64,000 bases of DNA from Beroe forskalii (lineage: Eukaryota > Ctenophora > Nuda > Beroida > Beroidae): assembly GCA_011033025.1 (NCBI GenBank), contig WFMF01000457.1, positions 1 through 64,000 on the forward strand, in the 5' to 3' direction. Under the pieces are notes generated by a model. It saw only the letters and a program-made list of their open reading frames with translations. It ran no database searches and had not been told where the DNA came from. Of the stretch, positions 30,867 to 50,406 are shown in pieces (position 1 is the first letter of the stretch; every line of letters starts with the position of its first letter). The translations under genes and the position numbers were made by a program.

Positions 30867-31565
30867 ATGTTGATGACATTCCTATCGAAGTTTACTTGTC
30901 CCCTGACTCTCACAGCAGCCAAACTACTGAGCTGTGGGGCTGCCCCTCCTTCACCACATCCACCAGGGTTAGAACTGCAGCTCCTTTCCAGGAAGCTTTC
31001 TGGATGTCCGGATTCTAGCATACATCTACCAGTTTATGCTGGAGGGCAAAACTTTATTCCCAGATTGGAACCCTTCCCTCCAGAAGCAGAGAGGTTAACA
31101 CAGCAGTCGCATGCGACTGCTGAAATTAACCTCACTGCTTCTGTAGGGGCCACCAATTCACTGATGCCAGAAGTTCTACTGAAGATTGAACCTGAGATCA
31201 ACCACGAACAGAATACCGTTCCAAGGAGACCTAGTAGCTGGATTGCTGATTCTGCATGTGATCAGCCTTCTCTTACAACTAATTCCACTGAAATATTTGG
31301 AAGCAGCCCTAACCACACAAGGAAATCTGAAAGTACAAGCATCAGCAAACCTTCGTACCCTCCACGATTTGGACCTAAACCTATGTATAAAGATTTTGTC
31401 GCTACTTTCATCACAAATACCACGACAAATACAATACCTGCTGCTACTAAAAGAAAATCATCTACTGAAAACATTTCAAGAAGTACTACTGCAATTCCCA
31501 AGACAACTGAAACCCCTATTGCCAACAATCCACCAAAGAAAACACGGTATAGAAAGCACAAGTAA
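30867..31565 (+). CDS. F1: ECHS1-presequence / MAEL-tail chimeric gene
   Basis: A single-exon frame of 232 residues. The N-terminus MLMTFLSKFTCPLTLTAAKL followed by LSCGAA matches the ECHS1 presequence [20 protein letters not shown] followed by DAA. From PPSPHPPGLELQLLSRKLSG onward it matches the M4/M6 Ser/Pro-rich tail through to a basic end (PPKKTRYRKHK). The join is in frame and lies in a CCTCCTTCACC stretch. The MAEL core, zinc motif and all ECHS1 catalytic residues are absent. R3 of the presequence is M here, so import may be weaker than for F5. It is the positional partner of F5. Function is unknown. Confidence 0.7.
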   Translation: MLMTFLSKFTCPLTLTAAKLLSCGAAPPSPHPPGLELQLLSRKLSGCPDSSIHLPVYAGGQNFIPRLEPFPPEAERLTQQSHATAEINLTASVGATNSLMPEVLLKIEPEINHEQNTVPRRPSSWIADSACDQPSLTTNSTEIFGSSPNHTRKSESTSISKPSYPPRFGPKPMYKDFVATFITNTTTNTIPAATKRKSSTENISRSTTAIPKTTETPIANNPPKKTRYRKHK

Positions 31566-32238
31566 ACGGCTTTTCTAAAAAATTATCATTGGAATACTGT
31601 TCCCAGTGCAGTCTTCTTTTCCTGACTTAGCTCTGTGGAGCAGAGCACCTCTGATGAGAGTTGGAGTGTTTTAAATTGGAAGATACTGATCGATTAGCAG
31701 AACCAATTTTGATCATCACCAGAACTTATTTTCAAAATAGATAATAGAGTGATGGTCTCAGTGATGTTTTGAGAATGCCTGCACTTGGTCCGGCTTGGTC
31801 GAATACTGTTAACTTTGAGAAAGTCTAAAAGGCATTTGAGGGTGACGTCATTGTCATGGTTTAGAATTTTGATTGGTTGATATGACATCAAATGATAATT
31901 TCCACTGAATTTTAAGTGACTGTTTCAAATGTATTCCACTCCAGAAACTGATTATATTAATTTGATCCTGAACATAATTGTAGACATCTGAGAGATCAAT
32001 CATTTAAAAAGATTATGATTTATGCAGAATTTTTCTATTTATGCCGGATTTAATGTTTCCTTGCCTAAAATTTCACTGCTTTGCCTTTCAAAACTATTGA
32101 AATTATGCCACAATTCCAGAGTTATTGAAACTATGTTGAACGCTGAGAATTTGCTTCAGCGATACCTAATCATTCCTCTAGGACCTCATAATGTCACATT
32201 CCAAATCAACTCTAAAATTGGCATTAACATACTATACA
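31566..32238. other. F1 3' flank and F2 upstream region
   Basis: Begins with the shared MAEL-tail 3' UTR (CAGTGCAGTCTTCTTTTCCT, CTCTGTGGAGCAGAGCACCT). It continues as the repeat-unit spacer found after each chimeric gene. The F2 promoter region is split by the element at 32239-33590. Confidence 0.6.
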
Positions 32239-33590
32239 GGGGGGGGGGGCAACCTCGAAAAACCCCGGGTGGATATAAAAATTGGCAAATGGGGGTTTAA
32301 TTTTCGGGGTTTATGGGGGTAAAAGGAGGCTAAACTGATAAAAATAGCCGTTTTTCGGTCGGAAAATATCAATTTTCTTACAAAATGGTACCACTTAAGT
32401 TGTGGTTTTTCGGCTTTTCTCTCAAATGGTACCATATCTGTTGACGATTTTTTGCCCTTTTCTGAAATAGTACCATTGTTGTTGACGATTTTCGACCCTC
32501 ATCTGAAATGGTACCATATTTGTTGACGATTTTTGGCCCTTTTCTGAAATGGTACCATTTTTGTTGAGGAATTCTAGCCCTTTCCTGAAATGGTACCATT
32601 TTTGTTGAGGCATTTTTGCCCTTTTCTAAAATGATACCATTTTTTATTGAGGATATTCAACCCTAATCTGAAATAGTAACATTTTTTGACGTTTTTTGAC
32701 CCTCATCTGAAATGGTACCATGTTTGTTGAGGATTTTTGGCCCTTTTCTGAAATGGTACCATTTTTGTTGAGGAATTTTTGCTATTTTCTGAAATGGTAC
32801 GATATCTGTTGACGATTTTTTGCCCTTTTCTGAAATAGTACCATTGTTGTTGACGATTTTCGACCCTCATCTGAAATGGTACCATATTTGTTGACGATTT
32901 TTGGCCCTTTTCTGAAATGGTACCATTTTTGTTGAGGAATTTTGGCCCTTTTCTGAAATGGTACCAATTTTGTTGAGGGATTTTGGCCCTTTTCTGAAAT
33001 GGTACCATTTTTTGCTGACGATTTTCAACCCTCATCTGAAATGGTTGACGATTTTTGGCCCTTTTCTAAAATAGTACCATTTTTATTGAGGATATTCAAC
33101 CATTTTCTGAAATGGTACCATATACCTGTTGACGATTTTATGCCCTTTTCTGAAATAGTACTATTTTTGTTGACGATTTTCGACCCTCATCTGAAATGGT
33201 ACCATATTTGTTGACGATTTTTGGCCCTTTTCTGAAACTGTACCATTTTTGTTGACGATTTTTGACCCTCATCTGAAATATTACTATGTTTGTTGAGGAT
33301 TTTTAGTACCATATTTGATGATGATATTTGGCATTTTTGTGAATTGGTACCATTTTTATACAGGATTTTTTGCCCTTTTCTAAAATGGTACCACTTTTGG
33401 TGAGCAATTTTGACACTTTTCTGAAATGGTACCCTTTTTGTTGAGGATTTTTGGCCCTATTTTGAAATGGTACCCAGTAAATTCTAATTTAAACCCCCAA
33501 AAACCCCAAAGTGGATATGAAAAAAGCCAAATAGGGGTTTAATTTTTCGGGGTTTAAGGGGTTTTTTCGAGGTTGCCCCCCCCCTCCCCC
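32239..33590. mobile_element. G-run terminal-repeat element with long GGTACC minisatellite
   Basis: The ends are a G-run plus CAACCTCGAAAAACCCC on the left and the complement on the right. TATACA is duplicated at 32233-32238 and 33591-33596. The core (about 32380-33475) holds roughly 28 copies of a 38-bp unit: CTGAAATGGTACCATTTTTG plus TTGACGATTTTTGGCCCTTT. This is the same design as the element at 26668-27271, with different unit sequence. It sits in the spacer before F2; the corresponding spacer before F3 (near 35000) reads without it. Confidence 0.8.
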
Positions 33591-33724
33591 TATACATGTT
33601 TTAAAGAAAATCCTTCATACTTTAATAATACAGTAAGTGATTGCTTTAACTAAGAATATAAAGCAACGTAACAAAACTCCAGTTCTAAGCCCCTTATTTG
33701 TCTAACTCCATTACCATTATAGGT
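33591..33724. promoter_or_regulatory. Immediate 5' flank of F2, ECHS1-like
   Basis: The last 130 bp share AAGAATATAAAG and CCATTACCATTATAGGT with the flanks of F3, F4 and F6. The end (TAGGT before ATG) matches the ECHS1 copies, which read CTAGGTAGGT before ATG. The AG in it could be a splice acceptor for an upstream untranslated exon. Confidence 0.35.
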
Positions 33725-34376
33725 ATGTTGAGCACAATCCTACCCCACTGCACCAGCCCCCTGGCTCTCAGAGTACCCGGCCGTGGGGCTGACTCTCCTT
33801 CGCCGCCCTCACCAGGGCTGCAATTGCAGCTCATATCCAGGAAGCTTTCTGGAAGTCCGGATTCTGGCATATATCTCCCAGTTTACGATGAAGTGCCAAG
33901 TTTTGGAACCCTTCCCTCCAGAAGCAGAGAGGTTGACACAGCAGTCGCATGCGGCTGCTGAATTCAACCTCACTGCTTCTGCAGGGGCCACCAATTATTC
34001 ACAAATGCAAGAAGTTCCAATGATGATTGAACCTGCGATCACCGATGAACAGGATACCATTCCAAGGAGACCTAGTAGCTGGATTTCTGATTCTGCATGT
34101 GATCAGCCAGCTCCTACAACTATTTCTACTGAAATATTTGGAAGCAGCCCTAACCACACAAGGAGATCTGAAAGTACAAGCCCCAGCAAACCTTCATACC
34201 CTCCAGGATTCGGACCTAAACCTATGTATAAAGATTTTGTCGCTACGTTCATCACAAATACTACAACAAACACAATACCTGCTGCAACTAAAACAATATC
34301 ATCTGCTGAAAACATTTCTAGAAGTACTACTCCAAAGAAAACACGTGGCAAGAAGAAGAAATCAAACCTTATTTAA
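33725..34376 (+). pseudogene. F2: chimeric ECHS1/MAEL-tail gene broken by an 11-bp deletion
   Basis: The ATG at 33725 opens MLSTILPHCTSPLALRVPGR and runs into the MAEL tail (PGLQLQLISRKLSGSPDSG). At about 33900 the tail segment that reads AGCTTTGTTCCCAGATTGGA in M4/M6 is shortened to AGTTTTGGA, an 11-base loss, and the frame stops at 33961. The rest of the tail continues in another open frame to 34376, ending KKTRGKKKKSNLI. The tail is otherwise well kept, so the break is recent or a sequence error. No stop interrupts the downstream part. Confidence 0.6.
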
Positions 34377-35126
34377 ACGGCTTTTCTAAAAGATTATCAT
34401 TGGAATGCTGTTCCCAGTGCAGTCTTCTTTTCCTGACTTAGCTCTGTGGAGCAGAGCACCTCTGATGTCTGATGAGAGTTGGAGTGTTTTAAATTGGAAG
34501 ATACTGAGCGATAAGCAGAACCAATTTTGGTCATCACAAGAATTTATTTTCAAAAGAAATTATGGAGTGATGGTCTTTCTCAGTGATGTTTTGAGAATTC
34601 CTGTACTTGCTCGAATACTATTAACTTTGAGAAAGTCTAAAAGGCATTTGAGGGTGATGTCATTGTCATGGTGTAGAATTTTGACTGGTTGATTATATGA
34701 CATCAAATGATAATTCCCACTGAATTTTAAGTGAGTGTTTCAAAGGTATTCCACTCCAGAAACTGATTATATTAATTTGATCCTGAACATAATTGTAGAC
34801 ATCTGATAGATCGATCTTTTAAGAATATTATGATTTACCTATGCAGAATTTTTCTATTTATGCCGCATTTAATGTTTCCTTGCCTAAAATTTCACTTGAA
34901 CGCCGAGAATTTGCATCAGAGATACCTAATCATGCCCTACTCCTCTAGGACCTCATAATGTCACATTTCAAATCAACTCTAAAATTGGCATTTCCATGCT
35001 ATATTACGTTTTAAGAAAATATTAATAATACAGTAAGTGATTGCTTTTACTAAGAATATAAAGTGACGTAACAAAATTCCACTTCTAAGCTTCTTATCCC
35101 TCTAACTCCAATACCATTAAATAGGT
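34377..35126. other. F2 3' flank and F3 upstream region
   Basis: Shared MAEL-tail 3' UTR followed by the common spacer (CATTTGAGGGTGATGTCATT) and the ECHS1-like 5' flank. It shows what the F2 spacer would look like without the G-run element. No gene. Confidence 0.6.
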
Positions 35127-35825
35127 ATGATGAGCACACTCCTACCCCACTGCACTGGCAGCCCCACAACTCTCACAGCAGCCAGACTACTCAGCTGTGC
35201 GGCTGCCCCTCCTTCACCGCCCCCACCAGGGCTTGAAATGCAGCTAATAATCAGGAAGCTCTCTGAAAGTCCGGATTCATCTGTCAGTTTACATCTACCA
35301 GTTTACGCTGGAGAGCAAAGCTTTGTTCCCAAATTGGAACCCTTCCCTCCAGAAGCAGGGAGGTTGGCACAGCAGTTGCATGCAGCTGCTGAAGTTAACC
35401 TCACTGCTTCTGCAGGGGCCACCAATTATTCACTGATGCCAGAAGTTCCACTGAAGAGTGAACCTGCGATCATCTATGAACAGAATACCATTCCAATGAC
35501 ACCTAGTAGCTGGATTTCTGATTCTGCATGTGATCAGCCAGCTCCTACAACTATTTCTACTGAAATATTTGGAAGCAGCCCTAACCACACAAGGAGATCT
35601 GAAAGTACAAGCCCCAGCAAACCTTCATACCCTCCAGGATTCGGACCTAAACCTATGTATAAAGATTTTGTCGCTACTTATATCACAAATACTACAACAA
35701 AAACAGGACCTTCTGCTACAGAAATAAAATCATCTGCTGAAAGTACTGCTGGATTTTCCAAGACAGCTGAAACCCCTATTGCCCACAATCCACCAAAGAA
35801 AACACGGTATAGAAAGCACAAGTAA
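35127..35825 (+). CDS. F3: chimeric ECHS1-presequence / MAEL-tail gene, intact
   Basis: A 232-residue single exon. The N-terminus reads MMSTLLPHCTGSPTTLTAAR then LLSCAAAPPSPPPPG, so LTAARLLSC of ECHS1 is kept exactly. From GLEMQLIIRKLSESPDS on it follows the M4/M6 tail, including SYPPGFGPKPMYKDF and the basic end PPKKTRYRKHK. VPLKSEP contains a psi-K-x-E match of the SUMO type. No counterpart exists in unit B, which has two chimeric genes against four in unit A. Confidence 0.7.
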   Translation: MMSTLLPHCTGSPTTLTAARLLSCAAAPPSPPPPGLEMQLIIRKLSESPDSSVSLHLPVYAGEQSFVPKLEPFPPEAGRLAQQLHAAAEVNLTASAGATNYSLMPEVPLKSEPAIIYEQNTIPMTPSSWISDSACDQPAPTTISTEIFGSSPNHTRRSESTSPSKPSYPPGFGPKPMYKDFVATYITNTTTKTGPSATEIKSSAESTAGFSKTAETPIAHNPPKKTRYRKHK

Positions 35826-36558
35826 ACGGCTTTTCTAAAAAATTATCATTGGAATACTGTTCCCAGTGCAGTCTTCTTTTCCTGACTTAGCTCTGTGGAG
35901 CAGTGCACCTTTGATGAGAGTTGGTGTTTTAAATTGGAAGATATTGATCTATTAACTTAAGAACTATTTTGGTCATCACCAAATTTATTTTCAAAAAATA
36001 ATGGGAGTGATCTCTCTCTCTGATGTTTTGAAATTCCTAACTCTTGGTCAGAATACTATTAACTTTGAGAAAGTCTAAAAGCATTTGAGGGTGATGTCAT
36101 TGTCATGGTGTAAATTTTGATTGGTTGATTATATGACATCAAATGATAATTTCACAATTTTAAGTGATTGTTTCAAAGTTATTCCCACTTCAAACTGATT
36201 ATATTAATTTGATCCTGAACATAATTAGCAGACATCTGATAGATCAGATCTTTTAAAAATATATTATGATTTGCCTATGCAGAATTTTTCTATTTATGCA
36301 GTTAATGTTTCCTTGTCTAAATTTCTTGAACGCCGAAATTTGCATCAGAGAATACCTAATCATGCCCCCTACTCCTCTGGACCTCATAATGTCACATTTC
36401 AAATCAACTCTAAAATTGTCATTTCAGGCTATATTACATCCTATAGAAAATCCTTAATTATACAGTTGCAGTGATTGCTTTTACTAAGAATATAAAGTAA
36501 CGTAATAAAATTCCACTTTTAAGCCTCTTTTTCTCTAACTCCATTACCATTATAAGGT
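35826..36558. other. F3 3' flank and F4 upstream region, poor-looking sequence
   Basis: This matches 49000-49698 in unit B but with many single-base losses, for example GAAATTCC for GAGAATTCC and GTAAATTTT for GTAGAATTTT. The pattern looks like uncorrected base-calling error, not ordinary divergence. No gene. Confidence 0.5.
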
Positions 36559-37200
36559 ATGATGGCCTCTACCCCACTGCACTGGCAGCTGACTCTCACA
36601 GCAGCCACACAACCCGGCCGTGGGGCTGACTCTCATTCCCGCCCCCACCAGGGCTTGAAATGCAGCTAATATCCAGGAAGCTCCGTGGATGTCCGGATTC
36701 ATCTGCCAGTTTACATCTACCAGTTTATGCTGGAGGGCAAAACTTTATTCCCAGATTGGAACCCTTCCCTCCAGAAGCAGGAGGTTAAGCACAGCAGTCG
36801 CATGCGGCTGCTGAAATTCCTTTCTCACTTCTGCAGAAACCACCAATTATTCTCTGATGCCGAAGTTCCACTGAGGATCAGACCTGCGATCACACATGAA
36901 CGAATACCATTCCAAGGGCTGGTTCTGATTCTGCACGTGATCAGCCTGCTCCTACAACTAATTCTACTGAAATATTTGGAAGCAGCCTAGCCACACAAAA
37001 GATCTGAAAGTACGAGCCCCAGCAAACCTTCATACCTCAGGATTCGGACCTAAACCTATGTATAAAAGATTTTGTCGCTACTTTCATCACAAATACTACA
37101 ACAAACACAATACCTGCTGCTAAAACAATATCATCTACTGAAAACATTTCTAGAAGTACTACTGGATTTTCCAAGGCAGCTGAAACGGCTTTTCTAAAAG
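36559..37200 (+). pseudogene. F4: degenerate chimeric ECHS1/MAEL-tail copy
   Basis: It starts ATGATGGCCTCTACC, followed by the remnant of the ECHS1-derived leader and the MAEL tail, but the frame is lost by many one-base indels. It shares with F6 the deletion that joins GCTGAAAC directly to GGCTTTTCTAAAAG, removing the basic C-terminal end. It also has the foldback element downstream. It is therefore the partner of F6. Since the flanks show the same indel pattern, some breaks may be assembly errors. Confidence 0.55.
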
Positions 37201-40200
37201 ATTATCATTGGTATTATCTTCCCAGTGCAGTCTTCTTTTCTGACTTAGCTCTGTGTAGCAAGAGCACCTCTGATGAGAGGTGGGTGTTTACATTGGAAGA
37301 TACTGATCCAACGATCATCAGCGAACCTGATTTGATCATCACCGATATTTATTTCATAATGAACAATATTGTTTGAATCTCTTTACTACAGTATATAATC
37401 AAGAGCAACATAAGAGTTTTCGATGGTCTCAGATCATCTGATTTGAAAAGAGTGAAGGGAAGATCTTAGGGCGCAAGTTTAAAACTTTTAAATGATAGTA
37501 CCGAATTGTTCACACGGCAGTTGTTCTAACTTTGAGCGACGTTGTGGGAGAACCAAAAGCAGATAGGCTTACCAAACTTTGAAAATGGTTCAAAATGGCT
37601 ATTAAATAGTGACTAGCTATCCCAGCTGATTTTTTGATGATTTTTTTCAATGTTGCCATACTGGACGTAAGTTCGACATGTGTTCCCGGTCACCTAGGGC
37701 CTTGAAATTTTGGTTGGATGAACTCTGACATCTATTTAACACTGTGTAAAAATTTCAGAAAGATCCAATAAGTCGTTTTGATTTTATGAACAATTATGTA
37801 AACAGTATAAACACATGATACGCGTACTGCAGCACAATTCACAACAAAACATAAACAACAAGGCCCTAGGTGAACGGGGACAAAAATCATCAAAAAATTC
37901 AGCTGGGATAGCTATTCACTATTTATAGCCATTTGAACCATTTTTCAAAGTTTGGTAAACTATCTGCTTTGGTTCTCCCACAATCGTCACTCAAAATTAA
38001 GAACAACTGCCGTGAACACCCGGTATATGATACGATATAGTTTATCTGTATTCTGTGTGCATCTTTCAGGATTTTTTGAATTAATAGCACTTGGTTGAAC
38101 TACGAATACACACTGCTGACTTTGTGAAACCCGTATTGTGGGTGTAATGTATGATTATTGTTACAGTACCAATTCATTATTAACCCTGTTGGAAATCTGA
38201 GATAAGGTAGTCAAGGTAGAGCGCTTTGAGTTGAGTGTATCTGAGTGTGTGTGTGTGTCGGTGTATTACTTATTAGGTTATCCAATTTACTAGATTGGAT
38301 TGTGGGAATTTCATTCTGCGAAAACCGGATTGTAATTGTGTTATTATGGGTGTTTCCTTCCGTTACATCTTTATTCTGTACATGATTGCATTACACTCTT
38401 TCTCAAATCCCCACATCAAGTAATTCTGTTTTTATTCTGAAACCATAATAAAATCAATTCTTCTTTCTTAATGTCTGAAGGCTTACTTATTCTTCTAATA
38501 TTTCCAGTCAATATAAATAGTATTCGGCTGAGAATGACGTCATCATCTGTGTGTGTCTGACAGTGTTGCAATTGAGGGTTGAGCAATATCATTGTTATCA
38601 TTATACCATCAAGTGTACATGTTGCTCTTCGATAAATTGCCCTTGTATCTATCTGATGTGTTCATAGTTTCATCTTGGCCATGAGTAGATGTATTTAGGT
38701 ATTGAGTCATATCAATTACCAGGATTTCATGATCTGTTTTTTGTTGGAATTAATCAAGAGGGTTCACGCAGATACTTAGTAGTATAGCTATCAAACACGG
38801 TATCACGTTTAGCTCACCAACACAGAAAACTGTATATTACTTACTAGTCATTCTGTAGAAGTGCTGTGATTTGAACCATTCATATCTCTGTGAATTATGT
38901 GCCAGGTTGAGTGAAAAATTATGTGCCAGGTTGAGTGAAAAATATCAAGAGTATGTGTACGAGAATCAGTGATCTTATCATAGCACGATTCTGTACATTT
39001 ATTATCTATTCGTAACACAAATGAAATGTGCGATAATTCATAGTGATATGCGGATGCGTATATTATTTGTAAAATATTGCACTAGTAAAATTTACAATGT
39101 ATGTACACGACATGTATAACACGTACATGTGTATTGTGTACTGTGTGCTAGGTGAAACAACTACATCAATTGCACACATGTGGTTCTCCAAATGAATTTC
39201 TAGCACCACTTCAAAAATGAAAACTTCCATCTTGATTTGTGACAAACCGTCACGTTGTCACTAAAAATCTGAAACTCCAAGACGCTTCACAACAAGACCG
39301 ACATGTTGTTCTACTTCACTTCCAATACACTGTCACAATGTAGACTGTCAAGATTCCGCATATATTATTATGTGTATCATACAGACACTAGACAGCAATA
39401 TAATCATGTGTTTCATGCAGACAGCAATATAATCATGTGTTTCCTGCAGACAGCAGCTTCACGAGACATATGATATGCACATAAGTAACTGTAAGATACG
39501 ACAGTCTAATGTCAATAAGCAGGTCATCATGTTTGTCATGTTTACAACGCAGAAAATAGAAAGTCGGAGGCAATGTTTTGAGATAATATGCTCATGTAGT
39601 CATGGACATAATAAGAGGCGAGACTATGAAAGTGAATAATATTGATTGAAAACCATCCGTTGAGGGGTGCCGCTTTTATGGGCAGGGAATAAATAAATAA
39701 AATCAGATATTAGTGAATCAACTAGAGTTCTAGAGTTCTAGGTTCTTTTTTAGAGTTTTATCACCTCATTCAGACTCCATCATCAGCACAATATGTTTAT
39801 TATCACTGCTGTTCTAATTTTGTCTATCATTTCCAAATATTATAATGTGCATTGTTATTGTCACTATTAATTATTATAATCTGTTATTAGAATTTGTATA
39901 TTATCATTATGTAGTATTTGTTTGAATGTTTCATTACTACAACGTTCACAGCTTTGCCTTCAAGCTTATAATCAAAGTATGAGTCCCTGACTCCCTGAGT
40001 TCACAATGTTTTGCAACACCAAACTAGATAATGATATTGGATGTTGCACAACTCAAATTGTCACATTTTGATTAATCAACCATTGCTATACAATGTTACT
40101 TTCAAAAGCACTTGTCCTATTGTATTTTTGTATTGTATTGTATATTTAGTTAGTGTGTTCACTGCTCATATCCCTTTAATCTTCTCATCCCAATACCTCT

Positions 40201-40213
40201 CTGCTAGGTAGGT
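37201..40213. other. Spacer between F4 and ECHS1-A
   Basis: No gene. It contains the foldback element (37501-38023), a GT microsatellite near 38245, and short local repeats such as GTGCCAGGTTGAGTGAAAAAT (twice near 38905) and ACAGCAATATAATCATGTGT (twice near 39400). The last 180 bp form the ECHS1 5' flank, with a TTGTATTGTATTGTATATTT stretch. Confidence 0.55.
37501..38023. mobile_element. Foldback element, about 520 bp, unit A copy
   Basis: Long inverted arms (about 140 bp). The left includes GAACCAAAGCAGATAGG-type and GCTATCCCAGCTGATTTTTT sequence. The right carries AATTCAGCTGGGATAGC, CTGCTTTGGTTCTCCCAC and ends GTGAACACCCGG. TA flanks fit a Tc1/mariner-type MITE. The left end is degraded. 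The same insertion is present in unit B at 50666-51193, so it predates the duplication. Confidence 0.75.
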
Positions 40214-41053
40214 ATGCTGCGGACCGTTCTCTCCCGGTGCAACCCCCTGACAGCAGCCAGGTTGTTGAGCTGTGATGCTGCCTCCTACGAGACTGTCCTG
40301 GTTGAGAAGCACGAGAGTGTGGCCCTTATCACCCTCAACCGTCCCAAAGCCCTCAACTCCATCAACCTCCAACTCATTGACGATCTGAACGCTGCGGTGG
40401 TGGCTGCTAACGGAGACAATGATGTTGGAGCTATCGTTTTGACGGGCTCTAAGAAAGCCTTCGCAGCGGGAGCTGATATTAAGATGATGGAGCCGATGTC
40501 CTTCTCTGACACCTACAAACTAGGTCTCTTCAATGACTTGGAGCATGTTACGAAGGGCAAGAAACCTATTATTGCTGCTGTCAATGGCTTTGCTTTGGGA
40601 GGGGGGTGTGAGCTGGCTATGATGTGTGATATCATCTACGCTGGAGACAAGGCTAAGTTCGGACAGCCTGAGATAACTCTGGGAGTGTTGCCTGGTGCAG
40701 GAGGCACTCAGAGACTCACTAGATCTGTGGGAAAGAGTAAAGCCATGGAGATGTGTCTGACTGGTAACTTCATTGACGCCACTGAGGCTAAACAGATAGG
40801 TCTAGCAGCACAGGTCTATCCTAGCGAGGAGTTGGTGGACAAGTCAATCGAGACAGCTAAGAAGATTGCCTCGTTTTCTAAGATGGCAGTGGCTATGAAC
40901 AAGGAGGCTGTCAATGTGGCGTATGAAACCTCACTGCAGCACGGACTGGACTACGAGAAACGGCTGTTCTACGCCTCCTTCGCCACCAAAGATCAAAAAG
41001 AGGGCATGGGAGCCTTCGTGGAGAAGAGAAAACCTGACTTCAAAGATGAGTAG
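40214..41053 (+). CDS. ECHS1: ECHS1-A: mitochondrial short-chain enoyl-CoA hydratase
   Basis: A complete 279-residue single-exon gene. The enzyme hydrates 2-trans-enoyl-CoA to 3-hydroxyacyl-CoA in mitochondrial beta-oxidation. Residues 1-24 ([20 protein letters not shown]) are an Arg-bearing, acid-free presequence. The crotonase fold follows: [13 protein letters not shown], the oxyanion segment [11 protein letters not shown], then [20 protein letters not shown] and FGQPEITLG. The two catalytic Glu are E133 (GGGCEL) and E153 (GQPEI), 20 residues apart as in the rat enzyme. [11 protein letters not shown] and the C-terminal [19 protein letters not shown] are intact. ECHS1 is usually multi-exon in animals; absence of introns here may indicate an old retrocopy. 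It differs from ECHS1-B at only two residues that I can see. Confidence 0.95.
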
Positions 41054-41580
41054 ATTGTAAACCTGAGATGATTTATCTAAAATATTTTATAACTTTCCAT
41101 AAGTGTTAAAGTTCTGTTTGGCTGTCAGATTCAGTGACATATAAACTCTCTAACTTATTATTTTTACTCATTACTAAAGTTGAATCACCATTTAAATGAT
41201 TTCGTAGTTTGATTCATTGCCTCAGGCGTGCAGTGCTGTGGATTTGTTAATACAACGACTGCTTTTTAATGTATATTGTGTTCTGTTTTACTGTCAGAGA
41301 TCTATTTTATCAAATCGCGTTTTCCATGATATAGGATTCAATGATTCACGTTTATTTTACAAGTTTCGTATTTCTTGAGCTTTCTGACTTAAATACTGCC
41401 AAGTGCCATGCATGATTACTGAACTTTAAAATGCTTTACAATTTCCATTAGTTAGGATTCTGCTGCTATGCTCTCATTTGATTTGTGAGTTTGTGTGTGT
41501 ATGTGAGAAATGACTAAATGAGGACTGTATTTCTGCGATATATTTACAATAATTACTAAGTCTACAGTCCCCATAGAGCA
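41054..41580. promoter_or_regulatory. ECHS1-A 3' flank and MAEL 5' flank, unit A
   Basis: The 527-bp gap between ECHS1 and MAEL exon 1 must hold the ECHS1 3' end and the MAEL promoter. It is strongly conserved with 53656-54201 in unit B. No TATA box is obvious. The conservation shows recent duplication and does not by itself prove function. Confidence 0.4.
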
Positions 41581-41731
41581 ATGGAGATATCGTTGCCAGG
41601 CGAACAAGTCCTGCCTCTCCCTAAGCTTTCTAACAAGAACAAAAAGAATAACCAGAAGAACAAACCTAATGGCTTCATTTGCTTTGCTAACGCTCAAAAG
41701 AAAACTCTGGCTTCCCAATACAACATCAGAG
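41581..41731 (+). pseudogene. M5: orphan first exon of MAEL (unit A)
   Basis: A 151-bp exon, MEISLPGEQVLPLPKLSNKN then the start of an HMG box (KPNGFICFANAQKK), ends with AGAG before GTTAG. It is nearly identical to M7 exon 1 at 54202-54352. No matching exon 2 follows in unit A: satellite DNA and then a truncated TMEM145 come next. The nearest downstream MAEL exons are those of M6, four kb away, whose first exon is phase 0 while this one ends in phase 1. It is most simply the left-over of the tandem duplication junction. Confidence 0.75.
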
Positions 41732-41893
41732 GTTAGTTGACACGACACTATTTGACATATTTTTACTGTAAATGTTTTACATACTTCGTAGTGCCATGCA
41801 CTCTTAATCACGATAATAGTATCATTTTATAATTCCCGTTCCCAAACAAATTTTCCGCTAACTTACCTGCCAGCCTGGTGTTATGTTATGTAA

Positions 41894-42056
41894 CACGTGA
41901 TGTTTCCTTAAAACACGTGATATTTGACATTTCTTTAGACTCTTGGTTGACCAGTAGCGCGTTTGATAATCGTTCACGTGCTTCACAGCGAACTGGTTAG
42001 TCTTTGTTATTCGACGACTGCATAACGTCCGATGTTTCATGTGACTGAGACACGTG
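41894..42056. promoter_or_regulatory. Four CACGTG boxes just after MAEL exon 1 (unit A)
   Basis: CACGTG occurs at 41894, 41914, 41975 and 42051, four palindromic E-boxes in 163 bp. The positions are preserved in unit B (54525, 54546, 54607, 54683). Such clusters bind bHLH-zip factors of the MYC/USF/TFE class. The location at the 5' end of intron 1 suits an enhancer. Regulation itself is inferred. Confidence 0.4.
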
Positions 42057-42188
42057 GCTTAGTTATTTTTAGTGACAAGAGCTCGGTGCTATAGCTGACA
42101 GCCATTCGCTAATTTGATTTACTTATACTTTTACGGAACACGCAACGATATTTTAGTAGAGGTCTTCAGCACTTGACAATAATAGATT

Positions 42189-42840
42189 GGCGGCGCGCGC
42201 GCTCGCGCCGCGCAATCAAAGATACGTACATGACGTACTGGTGTCACAGACACGTAGTCTGACTTACTGGTGTCAAAGATACGTTATCTGACTTACTGGT
42301 GTCAAAGATACGTAGTTTGACGTACTGGTGTCAAAGATGCGTAGTTTGGTGTACTGGTGTCAAAGATACGGAATCTGCCTTACTGGTGTCAAAGATACGG
42401 AATCTGCCTTACTGGTGTCAAAGATACGTAGTTTGACGTACTGGTGTCAAAGATACGTAGTCTGGCGTACTGGTGTCAGATGCTTTGTCTGACTTACTGG
42501 TGTCACAGACACGTAGTCTGACTTACTGGTGTCAAAGATACGTAATTGACTTACTGGTGTCAAAGATACGTAGTTTCACGTACTGGTGTCATAGATGCGT
42601 AGTTTGGTGTACTGGTGTCAAGGATACGGAATCTGCCTTTAACTGGTGTCAAAGATACGTAGTTAGACGTACTGGTGTCAAAGATACGTAGTGTGGCGTA
42701 CTGGTTCCATGGATGCTTTGGCTGACTTACTGGTGTCAAAGATACGTAGTTTCACGTACTGGTGTCATAGATGCGTAGTTTGGTGTACTACGTTGTCAGA
42801 GATACGTTGTCTGACTTACTGCTGCTAAAGATAAGTCTGG
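42189..42840. repeat. 29-bp satellite in MAEL intron 1, preceded by a GC palindrome (unit A)
   Basis: It begins with a CG-alternating palindrome, GCGGCGCGCGCGCTCGCGCC, then about 20 copies of GTACTGGTGTCAAAGATACG plus TAGTTTGAC, with variants such as GGAATCTGCCTT. The core ACTGGTGTCA..GATACG matches the 22-bp satellite at 8440-9380. Unit B has the same array with about half as many copies. Confidence 0.85.
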
Positions 42841-43627
42841 TGACTGCAGGTTTAGAGAGACAGTTACATTCAACCCCGGAACGCGAGGTAGCGCTGCTGC
42901 TAGTAGTTTGTGCGCAGTTTTGCGAAACGTAGCAATTCTGCAACAATATTGCCCGATTTCATAGGCTAAACTTCAGATAGGGTAATTTTGAAGGTGGCCA
43001 TTCGATAGAGCACAGCATAGGGAGTTCAGTGGTGAAGAGATCATTTGAATACGCCTTTAATGTCAGAAGTTATGATCAATAACACCTCGCGGCAGAAAAC
43101 GAGGTTTTCCAGTAGTGGCGTGTTCAACGATTCATTGTGAAGCTCAGGAACAAGATATCGAAAATCTATGATCAACTAACAATGTAGAATTTTATCCTCT
43201 ATCGATTCTCGAAGGTCCCAAGTCTCTATCTTCAAAAATGTGGATTTCTATAAAAAGAAACCATGAGATGGTGTAAAAAAGTACATTACTGTCTACGAAT
43301 GAGGTACCGCTGCTCTGTAGGTACCGCTGCTCCTTTGCGCGCGTGTTTCGACAGCGCAAATCAAGTTCATAGGTTATTTCAGTGTACTTGCTCGTGCGTG
43401 TGTTTGGCCCGTTACCGATTTTGCATGGTTTCTCGCTATTCCTCTCCGGTGATGAATAATCATCCCTCTATCTGATTCAAACGTTTTTGTTGCAAAAAAT
43501 TGTCTTGGTACCCTTTTATGGACTCACAATTGAGGTGGCTACATATGTGGCCACTAGGCACAAATGGGTTAAGGAGGCCTGTTAGCCAGTTTAAATGAAA
43601 AAAATTTGGGTACGAATGGGTTTTTAC
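42841..43627. other. Duplication junction filler
   Basis: The first 30 bp still match the sequence after the LINE in unit B (GTCTGGTGACTGCAGG against GTCTAGTGATTGCAGG). Homology then ends near 42870. From there to 43627 the sequence matches neither unit that I can see. It has no gene; an open frame at 43263-43475 is not convincing. This block separates the MAEL side of unit A from the TMEM145 side of unit B. Confidence 0.55.
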
Positions 43628-44327
43628 AAACTGTGCTCGGGTTGGCATCAAGTTCTGCTCAAAACGCGGCTTCTACACAGTCTTGGGAGTCTTCTATAGC
43701 ATCTGGCTGGTTGTAGTCCCTCTCATCATCCTGATAAGCAACACCCTCGTCAAAGATTACTCTAGAATGAAAGCTGTCTTCATGTCCCAGCAAATAGTTT
43801 GGCTCCTATCCTATCTCTACTTGTTTATTCTCTTCACTCCTGCACGTTCCAACAAGCACTTTCCCTTCCACCTGCGATCAACTCAGGTGTCAGATGGCGC
43901 AGCAATGCCCGCTGGTGAGAACAATTACAATGTGACGACCACCACCCAGGACAGACAAAATGGGGATATCTTTAGGGTCGGATATGACACTCAAGGTGCG
44001 TATGACCCTGCCAGTCTGGGGCATAAGGGACCAGCAAAACAGAAAGTAGTGGGGAATGGACGCTACCCAGAGTCTGACGCCGTTGCTGAGGCTGAAGTGA
44101 ACTCAATGAAGGGGTTCAATATCGAAAACGGGCTTTCTGTAAGAGAAACTGCTAATAATGGCACAGTGCCAACCAAACATACTCACGAAAAAGCTGATGG
44201 ACTGAATCAAAATCATGATCATTTGTATAGCAATGATGGATGGCTACAAGGTGATGATGTGTTCAATGACGGGGGAGTAAGGAAGGTTTCTGTGATGTCT
44301 CATGAAGAAAACCAGAGTTATAGTTGA
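43628..44327 (+). pseudogene. TMEM145: 5'-truncated TMEM145 copy (unit B edge)
   Basis: It aligns with 24858-25560 of the intact gene from ACTGTGCTCGGGTTGGCATC onward. The extracellular domain and the first helices are missing. Just inside the border, TTCTGCTCAAAACGC replaces TTCGCTCAGAAACGC, shifting the frame before it restores. From 43683 (MGVFYSIWLVVVPLI) 214 residues stay open, ending in HEENQSYS instead of SEENQNCYT. There is no signal peptide or promoter of its own. It is best read as duplication debris, though it could be transcribed. Confidence 0.8.
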
Positions 44328-45631
44328 CAAGTGATGTGGTAAATTATTCACTTTCAGGACGCAACACTTAATTCATTGTTATGAATTCCGAATTAATACG
44401 ATTTTATATGATGACGTTCAGATCCCAGCTCACGTTCAGAACCCAGCTAATTAACTTTAATGCCAATGATATTTTTATAATACGTCATATTTCGATTGAA
44501 ATAGCTTTTAATTTTAATTTTTGATTTTTATTGATTCCTGCAACTGCTGTATTACAATGATTTGATAGGGACAAAATACTCAAATGAGCTATCAACTACT
44601 AACGAATGGGAGTGTGCTACCGAAAATTATCACACGAGGAGTTAACTTAGACGTTAACAATTTTCGATAACACACGATCCATGAGTTAGCTCATTGAATT
44701 ATCACCCGATCCTAATTAACAAGGTCTAGCCAAGTGCTCCTTTTCAAATAAGTTTTTTCGCACTCATGTGATTATGTTATAACTGTTTTCCGCTTAGACT
44801 TCGGTTTTCTACTAAGGTTTAAAAATATAAAATTGCTTCTTTTGAAAACTTTTGCGAGCGTCACTTTACAGAATAAAGGGGTTGATTTATCGATAATTAT
44901 CACACCCGAATTATGATAACGGGAGGGTGATAATAATTCTTAGCATGCACTCAGTGATTAATTAAGTACTGTATAATTACTGTATAATTTCTGTAGAAAT
45001 ATACAGCCTCATGTATGGCAAATCTCAATGAAGACTTTTGGATTTAATGCGATGGAATACAAATTGAGAGTTCAGACAAATGTCTCGTAGTATTATATGC
45101 CCAGTACATATTTCAATATTGTTTTGTGAATAATAATTTGATTCGATTCAATAACTTAGTTTATCTTGTCAAGTAATTTCAAAATGAGCGGCTCGAAAAA
45201 GTGACCAAAACGAGCTTGATGGATCCAGACTCAAGCTCGTTTCGATCACTTTGTTTGGTTTTATCTTGCTTCAAAGTTAAGTTCCTCACATAATCACATT
45301 GATATGTTACAAGTTCTGACTTCTGGGTGTAGACAAATGAAGAAGTTTTGCAATCATGCATTCATACATTGGGCTCTTGGGGTCTTGTTTGTTGTTTACT
45401 GATAGTGATAGTGAATATTATTGTTATGTCGTTCGGGTATGCCTCAAATCAAATTAAGAGGGAATGATCTGCTACAAGGAAGTATTGTTTTCGTCGTAGT
45501 CAAATTTTACCAGTGGATTACAAAAAAGAGAATATTGCAATAATATTATACCTACCTATGATAAATTTCTTTTCACTGCATCCAATGAAATGCTTCCAAG
45601 TGTCACTCATTACGCATAGCTTCACTCTCAG
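44328..45631. other. Unit B spacer, TMEM145 copy to M6
   Basis: Aligns with 25561-27757 of unit A but lacks the 881-bp element; the empty TAC site is at 45365-45367. No gene. As in unit A, no upstream MAEL exons are visible. Confidence 0.6.
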
Positions 45632-47349
45632 GTGATGAAGATCGAAGACTTCCTTATCAACACACTCAGAAGGTTCAACAGTCTGAATGAGGAAAACGTA
45701 GTGGTTCCGCACTTCAACCAGTTCACTTCGCTTCTTGCTTCTTCAATGCACGACTTCAATAAACTATACAGGTTACTTTTTTTGCATTTACCATCCACGA
45801 GGCTTGCTAAGAATATCTTTCTATGAAGAATTCCGTTATTTTAATTTAATGATAATTATAAATTCATAAATGCCAATGACAAGCCCTTCATATTTATGAA
45901 TTACTATTTTACCTAGTACAGTATACCAACTATACAATTCATAACAAGAACAATAGGATGCACACGGCTGATCAAAATAAATTGATTAATTTGATGAATA
46001 TGCATATCCCTATACGAATATATCCAGGTCCTTGACTGATCATGGAATAGAACACTGAGTCAAGTGCCTGGCTATATCGTATGTTTATGACACTAAGAGT
46101 TAGGACGGATGCTGGATTGTATTTATAATCGTCTAAAATTTTTCTTCTCAGGTGCGAATACCATAACCAAGAAGAAAAGGCTTGGGATAAGAATTTCTGT
46201 TCAAGAAAGAATGCTCTCAAATACTTGGATATCATTCAGGACTGTCTATCACCACTCATCACTGCTGCTTCTTTCAATGACGTAGCTGAAAATGTCATCA
46301 GGAATGTACCCAGACCAGTACCTGCCACTCTGGCAAGAGACGTGCCTTATGAATCTCTCTCCAACCCAGAGTACCCTCTATCTGCAGGCTCACCTGTCTG
46401 TGTGGTTAATCCTCAACAGCACGCCTCAATGACAAATCTCTCTGAAGCCCTCTCTCCAAAAGCAGGCAAAGCAAACATCTCCAAGGAAGCTCGTCTTCTA
46501 ACTCCTAATGACTTCATCATTCCCAACCCTGGAAACCCTGCTAAGATGCTGGATGGGTCTCCTAACAAGGAATGTGTAGGAGAAACAGATGAAAAGCTCT
46601 TCCTTCCCAGGAAACCTCATCCTGAAAGCTTCTCTTCAAGAAAAAGTAAGAAGATCACACCGATGGAGTCCTCTCCTCCACGTTCTCTCTCATCTTCTCC
46701 TTCAAAATCATCCCCATCTCCTTCACCGCCCTCACCAGGGTTAGAACTGCAGCTTATATCCCGGAAGCTCTCTGGAAGTCCGGATTCTGGCATACATCTG
46801 CCAGTTTACGATGAAGTGCCAAGCTTTGTTCCCAGATTGGAACCCTTCCCTCCAGAAGCAGAGAGGTTGATACAGCAGTCAAATGCGGCTGCTGAAATTA
46901 ACCTCACTGCGTCTGTAGGGGCCACCAATTATTCACAAATGCAAGAAGTTCCAATGATGATTGAACCTGAGATCATCCATGAACAGAATACCATTCCAAT
47001 GAGACCTTGTAGCTGGATTTCTGATTCTGCACGTGATCAGCCTGCTCCTACAACTAATTCTAATGAAATATTTGGAAGCAGCCCTAACTACACAAAAAGA
47101 TATGAAAGTACAAGCCCCAGCAAACCTTCATACCCTCCAGGATTTGGACCTAAACCTATGTATAAAGATTTTGTCGCTACTTTCATCACAAATACCACGA
47201 CAAATACAATACCTGCTGCTACAGAAACAAAATCGTCTGCTGAAAACATTTCTAAAAGTACTACTGCATTTGCAAAGACAGCTGAAATCTCTATTGCCAA
47301 CAATCCACCAAAGAAAACACGTGGTAGGAAGAAGTTAAACATTATTTAA
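45632..47349 (+). CDS. M6: Maelstrom C-terminal exons with Ser/Pro-rich tail (unit B), one intron lost
   Basis: Two exons, 45632-45771 and 46152-47349, join in phase 2 (NKLY then RCEYHNQEEK). The first reads VMKIEDFLINTLRRFNSLNE and runs straight through to ENVVVPHFNQFTSL. In M4 a 387-bp intron with two extra codons interrupts this point. The zinc segment (RCEYH...FCSRKN), Ser/Pro tail, YPPGFGPKPMYKDF and basic end PPKKTRGRKKLNII are all intact. Relative to M4 the GSVPRP stretch is shorter by four residues. It lacks visible HMG and MAEL-core exons, as does M4. Confidence 0.65.
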
Positions 47350-48349
47350 ACGGCTTTTCTAAAAGATTATCATTGGAATGCTGACTGCAGGGCAGAGCAT
47401 CTCCAATTCCAATGAAACAAATGAGCTTTGGACAATTATTTGAGATACATCACTTATCATTATGAGGTTGTATGAGGTTCTAAGAATGAGTAAATAGCTC
47501 TTATTAGTTCTTTAGTTATTACTCTACTATTTCGTCAATCATTCAAACTAGAATTAGAGAAAACTTTTGCTATTCTTATTATTTCTGCTGAAGTTGTTGG
47601 TCGTTAAAACAAATCATTATCGGCAGTTGAGACTTGAGAGTGACGTCATTATCATTGTTCAAACGTTTGGTTGGATTATATTTCAAAAGATGTTTACTTC
47701 AGGTTAAGTGGAATGTTTCAAATGTATTCCACTCTAGTATAGATAGGAAACGATTAAAAACTTGATCCCGAACATGTTTGCAGATCACTTGCTTACTGGA
47801 GGGTTCGGAAAATAAAGCGGATTTCTTTTTCGCACATCAGCCTTCTACGTATAGATTCTATCAAAAGCACATAATTTTGCACGTCTTTATCTAGCCCTCT
47901 GTCAATCGAGTAATCTGCACACATGCATTATTGCTGTCTGCTGAGTTATGGATAATTGCAAACGATTATGATATATACAGATTCATTGTATAATGTATGT
48001 ACTATATTTCTGTCTGAATTGATGTTTCCTTGCATGAAATTGTCATAGCTTATCCTTCAAATTTATTGAAAAGTTGAAATGTGAGTGCCATGGTTACCTT
48101 TGGCCTTTCAAGGTTAATATCAGAGATAATTATGCCTTTAAACTAGCTCACATTACAATATTACATTTCAAGTTAACTTTTATCATGCAATACAGTATTA
48201 CTTTTGAAAGCAAATCCTTGATAATAAATGATTGCTCACACCAAATGTCTAAAGTACTAAGAATTGATAATAATGTAGCAAAATTCCACTAATTGTAAAG
48301 TTCTAAACCCATTATCCCTCTAACCCCATTACCATTTGAGAATCTAGGT
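47350..48349. other. M6 3' flank and F5 upstream region
   Basis: Aligns with 29908-30866 of unit A. It starts with the shared tail 3' UTR and ends with the ECHS1-like 5' flank and TAGGT before the F5 start. No gene. Confidence 0.6.
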
Positions 48350-48964
48350 ATGTTGAGGACAGTCCTATCGAAGTTTACTTGTCCCCTGACTCTCACAGCA
48401 GCCAAACTACTGAGCTGTGGGGCTGCCCCTCCTTCACCACATCCACCAAGGTTAGAACTGCAGCTCCTTTCCAGGAAGCTTTCTGGAAGTCCGGATTCTG
48501 GCATAAATCTGCCAGTTTACGATGAAATGCCAAGCTTTGTTCCCAGATTAGAACCCTTCCCTCCAGAAGCAGAGAGGTTGACACAGCAGTCGCATGCGGC
48601 TGCTGAAGTTAACCTCACTGCTTCTGCAGGGGCCACCAATTATTCACTGATGCCAGAAGTTCCACTGAAGATCGGGTCTGAAGACATCACTCATGATGGG
48701 AAGAAAATTTGTATTTGTCTGTCAAGTCCTAGAAGGATTGAACCATTGTCAATATACTTTTATATTTTATCGCTTCTTATATCACAAATACTTCAACAAA
48801 CACAGGACCTTCTTATGGCATACCTGCTGCTACTTAAAGAAAATTATCTACTGAAAACATTTCTAGAAGTACTACTGCATTTCCCAAGACAGCTGAAACC
48901 CCTATTGCCAACAATCCACCAAAGAAAACACGGTATAGAAAGCACAAGTAAACGGCTTTTCTAA
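48350..48964 (+). CDS. F5: chimeric ECHS1-presequence / MAEL-tail gene with rearranged 3' half
   Basis: 204 residues. The leader MLRTVLSKFTCPLTLTAAKL is the closest of all to ECHS1 (MLRTVLSR...LTAARLLSC). It joins the MAEL tail at PPSPHPPRLELQLLSRKLSG. After VPLKI, at about 48672, some 240 bp of tail are missing. They are replaced by about 90 bp of unrelated sequence (SEDITHDGKKICICLSSPRR). Tail homology then resumes in the +1 frame, giving a Leu-rich C-terminus that ends ESTSKRLF. The product would therefore have a different end from F1 and F3. Confidence 0.6.
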   Translation: MLRTVLSKFTCPLTLTAAKLLSCGAAPPSPHPPRLELQLLSRKLSGSPDSGINLPVYDEMPSFVPRLEPFPPEAERLTQQSHAAAEVNLTASAGATNYSLMPEVPLKIGSEDITHDGKKICICLSSPRRIEPLSIYFYILSLLISQILQQTQDLLMAYLLLLKENYLLKTFLEVLLHFPRQLKPLLPTIHQRKHGIESTSKRLF

Positions 48965-49698
48965 AAGATTATCATTGGAATACTGTCCCCAGTGCAGTCT
49001 TCTTTTCCTGACTTAGCTCTGTGGAGCAGAGCACCTCTGATGAGAGTTGGAGTGTTTTAAATTGGAAGATACTGATCTATTAGCAGAACAATTTTGGTCA
49101 CCACCACAATTTATTTTCAAAAGAAATAATGGAGTGATGGTCTTTCTCAGTGATGTTTTGAGAATTCCTGTACTTGCTCGAATACTATTAACTTTGAGAA
49201 AGTCTAAAAGGCATTTGAGGGTGATGTCATTGTCATGGTGTAGAATTTTGATTGGTTGATTATATAACATCAAATGATAATTTCCACTGAATTTTAAGTG
49301 ATTGTTTCAAAGGTATTCCACTCCAGAAACTGATTATATTAATTTGATCCTGAACATAATTGTAGACATCTGATAGATTGATCTTTTAAAAATATATTAT
49401 TATTTACCTATGCAGAATTTTTCTATTTATGCCGGATTTAATGTTTCCTTGTCTAAAATTTCACTTGAACGCCGAGAATTTGCATCAGAGATACCTAATC
49501 ATGCCCCTACTCCTCTAGGACCTCATAATGTCACATTTCAAATCAACTCTAAAATTGTCATTTCCAGGCTATATTACATCCTATAGAAAATCCTTAATTA
49601 TACAGTTGCAGTGATTGCTTTTACTAAGAATATAAAGTAACGTAATAAAATTCCACTTTTAAGCCTCTTTTTTCTCTAACTCCATTACCATTATAGGT
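48965..49698. other. F5 3' flank and F6 upstream region
   Basis: Common tail 3' UTR, spacer and ECHS1-like flank (AAGAATATAAAGTAACGTAA, CCATTACCATTATAGGT). This is the clean counterpart of the error-rich 35826-36558. No gene. Confidence 0.6.
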
Positions 49699-50406
49699 AT
49701 GATGAGCCCACTCCTACCCCACTGCACTGGCAGCCCCCTGACTCTCACAGCAGCCACACAACCCGGCCGTGGGGCTGACTCTCATTTCCCGCCCCCACCA
49801 GGGCTGGAACTGCAGCTCCTTTCCAGGAAGCTCCCTGGATGTCCGGATTCATCTGCCAGTTTACATCTACCAGTTTATGCTGGAGGGCAAAGCTTTATTC
49901 CCAGATTGGAACCCTTCCCTCCAGAAGCAGGGAGGTTAGCACAGCAGTCGCATGCGGCTGCTGAAATTAACCTCACTGCTTCTGCAGGGGCCACCAATTA
50001 TTCACTGATGCCAGAAGTTCCACTGAGGATCGAACCTGCGATCACCGATGAACAGGATACCATTCCAAGGAGCGGGATTTCTGATTCTGCTTGGGATCAG
50101 TCTGCTCTTACAACTAATTCTACTGAAATATTTGGAAGCAGCCCTAACTACACAAGGAGATCTGAAAGTACAAGCCCCAGCAAACCTTCATACCCTCCAG
50201 GATTCGGACCTAAACCTATGTATAAAGATTTTGTCGCTACGTTCATCACAAATACTACAACAAACACAATACCTGCTGCAACTAAAACAATATCATCTGC
50301 TGAAAACATTTCTAGAAGTACTACTGGATTTTCCAAGGCAGCTGAAACGGCTTTTCTAAAAGATTATCATTGGTATTATCTTCCCAGTGCAGTCTTCTTT
50401 TCCTGA
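49699..50406 (+). CDS. F6: chimeric ECHS1/MAEL-tail gene with read-through C-terminus
   Basis: 235 residues. The leader MMSPLLPHCTGSPLTLTAAT is followed by QPGRGADSHFPPPPG, so the LLSC end of the ECHS1 presequence is replaced. The MAEL tail then runs to STTGFSKAAET. A deletion of the basic end and its stop codon lets the frame continue into the former 3' UTR, ending AFLKDYHWYYLPSAVFFS. F4 shares this deletion, so it predates the unit duplication. The leader is less presequence-like than in F5. Confidence 0.6.
   Translation: MMSPLLPHCTGSPLTLTAATQPGRGADSHFPPPPGLELQLLSRKLPGCPDSSASLHLPVYAGGQSFIPRLEPFPPEAGRLAQQSHAAAEINLTASAGATNYSLMPEVPLRIEPAITDEQDTIPRSGISDSAWDQSALTTNSTEIFGSSPNYTRRSESTSPSKPSYPPGFGPKPMYKDFVATFITNTTTNTIPAATKTISSAENISRSTTGFSKAAETAFLKDYHWYYLPSAVFFS

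Follow-up and report, generated by a model that had tools for sequence, protein, structure and literature searches.

In a 64,000-nucleotide stretch of genomic DNA from the comb jelly Beroe forskalii (contig WFMF01000457.1 of the assembly GCA_011033025.1, positions 1 to 64,000; referred to here as the window), six short units, F1 to F6, are lined up in which a leader related to the presequence of ECHS1, the enoyl-CoA hydratase, is joined to the tail of a Maelstrom (MAEL)-like gene. There is little doubt in our view that these units are chimeric in origin. With moderate confidence we further suggest that all of them go back to one chimera made by tandem duplication, and that F1 and F3 are probable survivors, still weakly constrained genes for a small disordered protein. 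An earlier reading of the window (the original prediction) had proposed one ancestral fusion of the ECHS1 5' end with this type of tail that was later multiplied, which our analysis supports, and the start codons of all six units were confirmed at the positions given there. The number of six copies derives from one assembly, and the genome searches reported below covered the 216-Mb assembly that contains the window. The mitochondrial contig of this assembly (13,339 bases, 17.5% G+C) yielded no tRNA in an ARAGORN run with the bacterial code, and four TGA stand within its COX1 frame; several genetic codes keep this frame open, and we favour code 4, under which AGR codons occur at positions usual for arginine. 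For Beroe forskalii mtDNA a mean G+C of 17.3% and a lack of conserved tRNAs have been described (PMC6991124).

The parents (M, the MAEL-like gene, and E, ECHS1) and the hybrids are arranged in two adjacent blocks, A (containing M4 to E1) and the shorter B (containing M6 to E2):

28690-29907, + strand: M4, last exon of a MAEL-like gene with an acceptor-like AG at its start, the type of the tail donor (open frame 28669-29904)
30867-31565, + strand: F1, intact chimera of 232 amino acids (leader 30867-30945, tail from 30946)
33725-34376, + strand: F2, broken copy; the join between leader and tail is in frame, but the frame is lost further on through an 11-base deletion
35127-35825, + strand: F3, intact chimera of 232 amino acids
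36559-37190, + strand: F4, broken copy with many small frameshifts (three TGA and one TAA within the tail match)
40214-41053, + strand: E1, ECHS1 in one open frame of 279 amino acids, the type of the leader donor (Pfam PF00378, ECH_1, E 3.8e-84)
46150-47349, + strand: M6, second copy of the MAEL-like last exon
48350-48964, + strand: F5, with the leader nearest to ECHS1; a filler (about 48673-48763) breaks the tail, and beyond it comes a 3' part like that of F3, out of frame
49699-50406, + strand: F6, open frame of 235 amino acids, basic C-terminus replaced (3' deletion common to F4)
52816-53655, + strand: E2, second ECHS1 copy (dN/dS to E1 0.02)

The relation of the leaders to ECHS1 was assessed with a profile built from both ECHS1 5' ends (-330 to +84), which found F5 (E 3.2e-13), F1 (7.5e-11) and F3 (1.9e-5), as well as a remnant of an F flank at 32036-32122 (0.0017), against a best value of 0.46 in the reversed window; F2 gave a non-significant 0.47, and F4 and F6 were not listed at E up to 10. 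The converse profile, made from all six F 5' ends, found E1 at 3.5e-11 and E2 at 2e-6. When the E1 leader was aligned to the 2391 ATG contexts of the window, E1 and E2 came out on top, followed by F5, F3 and F1 at ranks 3, 4 and 5, with F6, F2 and F4 at ranks 11, 13 and 209; a ranking of peptides likewise placed F5, F3 and F1 at 3 to 5 of 852. Plain shuffles of 420-base pieces reached the observed score once in 300 for F1 and never in 300 for F3 and F5. A likeness due to chance or simple composition would fit F2, F4 and F6, which alone have no significant match to ECHS1 and whose scores were reached by 138, 11 and 11 of 300 shuffles, respectively. For F1, F3 and F5 it is rejected by the profile, the reversed control, the ranking and the shuffles, and as an explanation of the leaders it is exceedingly improbable. 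F2, F4 and F6 are counted as family members because they are homologous to other F copies (leader differences of 4% for F4-F6, 10% for F2-F6 and 14% for F3-F6). The claim that all six leaders are relatives of that of ECHS1 therefore holds directly for F1, F3 and F5, and for F2, F4 and F6 by way of the other copies only.

The fused 5' part seems, judging from profile matches, to extend into ECHS1-like sequence that lies before the ATG. An ECHS1 profile restricted to this region matched the flank remnant (32034-32122, 8e-4) and the DNA before F5 (48014-48212, 0.0045) and F1 (30510-30600, 0.011), with a best value of 0.55 in the reversed window, and an upstream profile of F1 and F5 found the E1 flank at 0.0099 versus 3.7 in reverse. 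Along with the leader, F may thus have acquired a start and a putative splice acceptor, and possibly a promoter too. The motif AGGTATG stands at all eight F and E starts, and its AG is a possible acceptor; the window holds 16 such motifs on both strands where 7.6 are expected, a number that one of 100 shuffles also reached. In Hormiphora, another comb jelly, spliced-leader trans-splicing is reported to be common, with at least 56% of mRNAs (PMC8527503), and expression of each F unit would make use of the acceptor-like site before its ATG, in a phylum in which leader trans-splicing is common.

We also considered a 5' module that is widespread among many genes. No sign of it was obtained: the F5 leader with its flank, used as a query, gave five reported places including itself, all within the window, and a genome search with the 20-residue ECHS1 leader returned E1 and E2 only, DNA searches of this kind skipping common words. 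E1 and E2 are the only near-identical pair among 13 genome matches, E2 being 99% like E1 and the next match 39%. Both ECHS1 copies run from the leader through to the end in a single open frame.

The tail of the F units matches M4 at 28981-29907 and M6 at 46429-47349, and all ten genome matches reported for the M6 tail lie inside the window, in M4, M6 and F copies (12 candidates scored). A profile of the M4/M6 3' flank matched at 31832-31975 (4.7e-14), 34644-34791 (2.9e-11), 49211-49358 (3.9e-11) and 36083-36224 (3.9e-8), so that an M-type 3' flank is present 3' of F1, F2, F3 and F5; no match was obtained after F4 or F6, whose 3' side is altered. M4 and M6, which were examined as last exons, have no Pfam match of their own at E up to 5. 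They are called MAEL-like because the start of this exon is matched by the MAEL-like sequence M1 at 2e-7 and M1 matches M7 at 1e-8 (values from a window-sized database with filters off, hence flattering), and the Pfam Maelstrom domain is present in M7 at 2e-7. The Pfam Maelstrom model, with 6 candidates scored, reported a single hit in the genome (57816-58307, 47.2 bits), and a supposed HMG exon at 57065-57322 had no Pfam match. More MAEL-like stretches lie at 3-896, 17343-17429, 57436-58958 and 60652-60735, those at 17343 (0.004) and 60652 (1.4e-4) being weak, which suggests a local MAEL expansion.

In both blocks the order is M-F-E on one strand (M4, F1 to F4, E1 and M6, F5, F6, E2), with F between its parents and 959 and 1000 bases from M to F. 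A single tandem duplication from the interior of M to the interior of ECHS1 would be the simplest origin, because of this order and of the M 3' side found on F; a duplication followed by deletions, as described for the Sdic genes of Drosophila, likewise predicts M-F-E. The original prediction had derived the fusion from an ECHS1-then-MAEL order. A fusion of neighbouring genes stands, but the order would be turned round, the simplest event being one that starts from MAEL-then-ECHS1. In detail, the duplicated piece would have started within the last exon of M, crossed a spacer of about 1 kb and ended within the leader of ECHS1, which lay a short way downstream on the same strand, so that both parents were retained and a hybrid was formed between them. 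This hybrid would have consisted of ECHS1 upstream DNA, the acceptor-like AG, the start codon and about 26 leader codons, joined in frame to about 205 codons of the disordered tail of M, followed by its 3' flank. At the junction, F copies in which it is clean have a CCTCCT-like stretch, and TCCT is found there in both parents; this fits a join at short homology, in an event too old to be sure. The hybrid would then have multiplied in units of about 1.4 kb; the distances from start to start are 1402 (F2-F3), 1432 (F3-F4) and 1349 bases (F5-F6), and 2858 bases for F1-F2, which have a minisatellite between them. The F tails would have swapped sequence with M through gene conversion, the units would have been carried along in a regional block duplication, and F1 and F3 would survive as coding genes, the remaining copies being decayed or altered.

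Divergence differs strongly between the parts of the units. F and ECHS1 differ by 33-44% in the leader and by 51-62% in the 5' flank, which is close to unalignable, and the 3' flanks of F1, F2, F3 and F5 differ from M by 40-52%, as compared with only 6-16% for the tails (17-19% for F5 with its filler). The synonymous divergence of the F1, F3 and F6 tails from M4 and M6 is 0.10-0.23 and thus far below that of the flanks, suggesting that the small difference of the tails is mostly due to exchange and not to amino-acid constraint. In a Sawyer-type permutation test for common tracts in the tail (127 variable gap-free columns in 7 copies, F5 being omitted for its filler) none of 2000 permutations reached the observed value, and the trees of the 5' part and of the tail disagree in branch depth.

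Five long stretches of the self-comparison pair block A with block B at a likeness of 88.5 to 92%, and dS is 0.08-0.12 between M4 and M6 and 0.155 between E1 and E2. For the leaders of F against ECHS1 (F4 omitted) dS is 0.87-1.95, a rough value from about 20 synonymous sites, and dN 0.15-0.40. Because the leader values lie so far above the 0.08-0.155 of the blocks, the fusion looks, on these distances, much older than the block duplication.

As the original prediction had stated, F1 and F3 are full-length open frames, and F6 is open as well with a different C-terminus. Its in-frame switch from leader to tail does not apply to F4, in which the leader frame stops early and the tail lies in another frame. 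A search for the source of the F5 filler matched the filler itself only.

A competing explanation, quite possible though short of probable, is that all six units are by-products: a chimeric pseudogene array from which nothing is made and whose tails look gene-like through conversion from M4 and M6 while the rest drifts. The following results weigh against our reading, those on dN/dS, broken copies, basic residues and conversion also being in favour of such an array. Three of the six copies (F2, F4 and F5) are broken. The dN/dS check that the original prediction had proposed was run on the tails and gave 0.84 for F1 and F3 (50 replacement and 18 silent changes), which is not distinguishable from 1, dN equalling or exceeding dS in 26% of the bootstraps; 0.61 and 0.84 were obtained for the remaining pairs of F tails, none of the ratios being clearly below 1. 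The value of 0.84 for F3-F6 and that of 0.99 for M4-F3 are compatible with no constraint, though F6 gave 0.49 against M4 and 0.43 against M6. For the leaders, all nine computable ratios between F copies are 0.93 to 5.5, and those of F3 and F6 have lost basic residues. Gene conversion from M, of which the permutation test gave a signal, could hold the tails open without any use of F. The ECHS1 homology is weak when upstream DNA is used alone, and an upstream profile of F3, F4 and F6 found no ECHS1 flank at E up to 1. The profile of the F 5' ends also matches a minisatellite stretch at 27086-27256 (1.8e-5), which is probably explained by the presence of that repeat inside the F2 flank; the ECHS1 profile did not list it.

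The pattern of insertions and deletions argues against a mere by-product. F1 and F3 have diverged as much in the tail (0.11) as in the 3' flank (0.11), yet none of their four coding indels breaks the frame over 698 coding bases, in contrast to 7 of 10 in the flank; 11.4 frame-breaking coding indels are expected (P 1.1e-5, or 0.010 if the flank count is set to its lower limit), and a conditional count gives P 0.0011 (0.017 after 15 pairs), values that are biased towards these two copies since they were picked as intact. Over the pairs listed, multiples of three make up 18 of 75 flank indels, all 5 leader indels (F2 and F5 included), all 19 tail indels among M4, M6, F1, F3 and F6 (cut before the changed end) and 4 of 12 in two pairs with broken tails, where the pairs overlap and the open copies were selected for being open. 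In addition, fewer leader replacements than predicted for a neutral F branch were found in 6 of 10 comparisons (F5, F1 and F3 against E1 and E2; P at most 0.028), for example 8 instead of 18.0 for F5 against E2 (P 0.0015), in a test that takes the branches as equally long and that of ECHS1 as frozen; no such deficit was seen in the 4 comparisons of F6 and F2 (P 0.21 to 0.38). The leader is absent from M, so conversion from M cannot have preserved it. From these comparisons it appears likely that the chimera was long held as a gene and is now partly decaying, with F1 and F3 as the likely survivors, and we give an even chance to the translation of F1 or F3 today.

Block B might alternatively be the other haplotype, joined to block A by the assembler, in which case there would be four F genes and not six. 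The two blocks are adjacent and about 90% alike, and the size of the assembly, 216 Mb compared with an estimate of 94.3 Mb for the Beroe ovata genome, hints at uncollapsed haplotypes. Genome searches with the tail and with ECHS1, however, reported no allelic copy of the locus on another contig, and the dS values between M4 and M6 and between E1 and E2 are well above the single-nucleotide heterozygosity of 2% given for Hormiphora (PMC8527503). Moreover, block B is truncated at its 5' end, has no F2 or F3 unit and contains F5 in rearranged form. We consider a joined haplotype improbable, and hold to six tandem copies in two duplicated blocks.

F1 and F3 would encode proteins of 232 residues with 35-38% proline, serine and threonine. 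Neither these two nor F6 match any Pfam family at E up to 5, be it MAEL, HMG or hydratase, and on this ground a MAEL domain inside F is rejected. A structure model of F1 had a mean pLDDT of 45.7 and a pTM of 0.10 (alignment of 5 sequences), in line with disorder. A role in the piRNA pathway, to which the original prediction had assigned MAEL, does not follow for F, because the donated tail has no MAEL or HMG match and is predicted to be disordered.

The original prediction had also suggested that the fusion may have made a mitochondrial or dual-targeted protein. In a reading of this kind the ECHS1-derived presequence would bring the F proteins into mitochondria or attach them there, and so place a MAEL-type disordered tail at that site. 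In its favour, the leader is homologous to a presequence and shows the early constraint on replacements described above, and the leaders of F5 and F1 resemble that of ECHS1 in charge and moment: F5 has 3 basic and no acidic residues among 27, and its helical moment reaches 0.49 at best (ECHS1: 3 basic, 0.45), and F1 has 2 basic residues and a moment of 0.44. Against this, the best leader, that of F5, is attached to a broken tail, and those of F3 (1 basic residue, moment 0.37) and F6 (1 basic and 1 acidic residue, moment 0.44 over the changed part) are unlike that of ECHS1. F2 has 2 basic residues and F4 has 1. Targeting today is not supported so far, the number of basic residues having fallen from 3 to 2 or 1. 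The leaders suggest a mitochondrial address that was probably there at first and is doubtful now, and we regard mitochondrial proteins as unlikely, as is import at present. A bolder reading, somewhat less probable still, would take the ECHS1 start and presequence with the Maelstrom-type disordered tail for a new long-lived family, in which the germline-type tail of the intact members F1 and F3 came under the control of the metabolic enzyme gene with an initial mitochondrial address that was later lost by copies diverging in location.

Block A reads TMEM145-like frame, M4, F1, F2, F3, F4, E1, and block B truncated TMEM145-like copy, M6, F5, F6, E2. The features that flank or intersperse the array are:

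24373-25560, + strand: last long open frame of a GPR180/TMEM145-like gene, left neighbour of the array (Pfam PF10192, E 5.3e-30)
31913-32236, + strand: remnant units, namely two incomplete copies of the F 5' flank that lack both leader and tail (nhmmer 31913-32077, 1.3e-46, and 32080-32236, 2e-25)
32383-33474, + strand: 41-bp minisatellite interrupting the F2 5' flank
37513-38014, + strand: terminal inverted repeat element with repeats of about 140 bp, between F4 and E1 (inverted self-match 37513-37648 / 38014-37879)
43629-45367, + strand: second TMEM145-like copy, 5'-truncated, left end of block B (89.9% match to 24859-26594)
50664-51195, + strand: second terminal inverted repeat element (inverted self-match 50664-50809 / 51195-51050)

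The 41-bp minisatellite in the F2 flank belongs to one family with that at 26796-27177 before M4. A 29-bp minisatellite lies at the right end of both blocks (42216-42833 and 54872-55169), a location in which it may have played a part in the block duplication. A retroelement remnant on the - strand (55564-56888) consists of two adjoining open frames, of which 56223-56888 matches RVT_1 (1.4e-8) and the other has no Pfam match, and an open frame of 318 amino acids at 12562-13518 also has no Pfam match.

Among the titles and abstract openings listed on ctenophore piRNA and Maelstrom, on Maelstrom gene duplication in metazoans, on presequence fusion and on chimeric genes, no description of this ECHS1-Maelstrom chimera was found, which does not imply that it is unpublished. 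In an animal from an early branch, the birth of a gene by tandem duplication seems to be documented here with unusual completeness: about 25 kb hold the two kinds of parent, the hybrid and the traces of how it was amplified, converted and left to decay. With two copies open in a fusion that looks old, the array makes it possible to test how new chimeric genes persist and, if the leader works, a targeting signal would have spread to a new protein via local duplication.

With regard to its parents, F shares with ECHS1 the start, the leader and probably some upstream DNA, all of which would descend from it, and differs in having only the leader and no hydratase domain. The Maelstrom family is described as having lineage-specific expansions (PMC2628886), and M4 and M6 seem to be part of such a local expansion; unlike a Maelstrom protein, F holds only the tail that follows the MAEL domain (EHHCHC), without a Pfam MAEL or HMG match. 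Among chimeric genes the closest parallel, by analogy, is Sdic of Drosophila melanogaster, whose described history comprises the duplication of a segment spanning two neighbours, their fusion, expansion in tandem and pronounced gene conversion with a parent (PMC7475035). In the F array, too, the 5' end of one gene (ECHS1) is joined to the 3' end of its neighbour (M), the hybrids lie between their parents on the same strand, the flanks match those of the parents (clearly on the 3' side of F1, F2, F3 and F5, weakly on the 5' side with 0.0045 for F5 and 0.011 for F1), and the tandem copies show gene conversion (0 of 2000 permutations). Both systems thus have two adjoining genes fused by duplication, a tandem expansion, conversion involving a parent and 3' ends that differ among copies. 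According to the same source, however, Sdic originated when both genes were duplicated and deletions followed, and it is confined to D. melanogaster, whereas for F one tandem duplication would suffice, the fusion looks old by dS, and the parents are ECHS1 and a MAEL-like gene. In Drosophila yakuba, tandem duplications across gene boundaries are likewise described as joining a 5' end to the 3' end of a neighbour (PMC5460883); the chimeras there come from a population sample of fly lines, whereas F is an apparently old and amplified family. The mode of origin is therefore probably one already known from flies, found here in another phylum and with unexpected parents.

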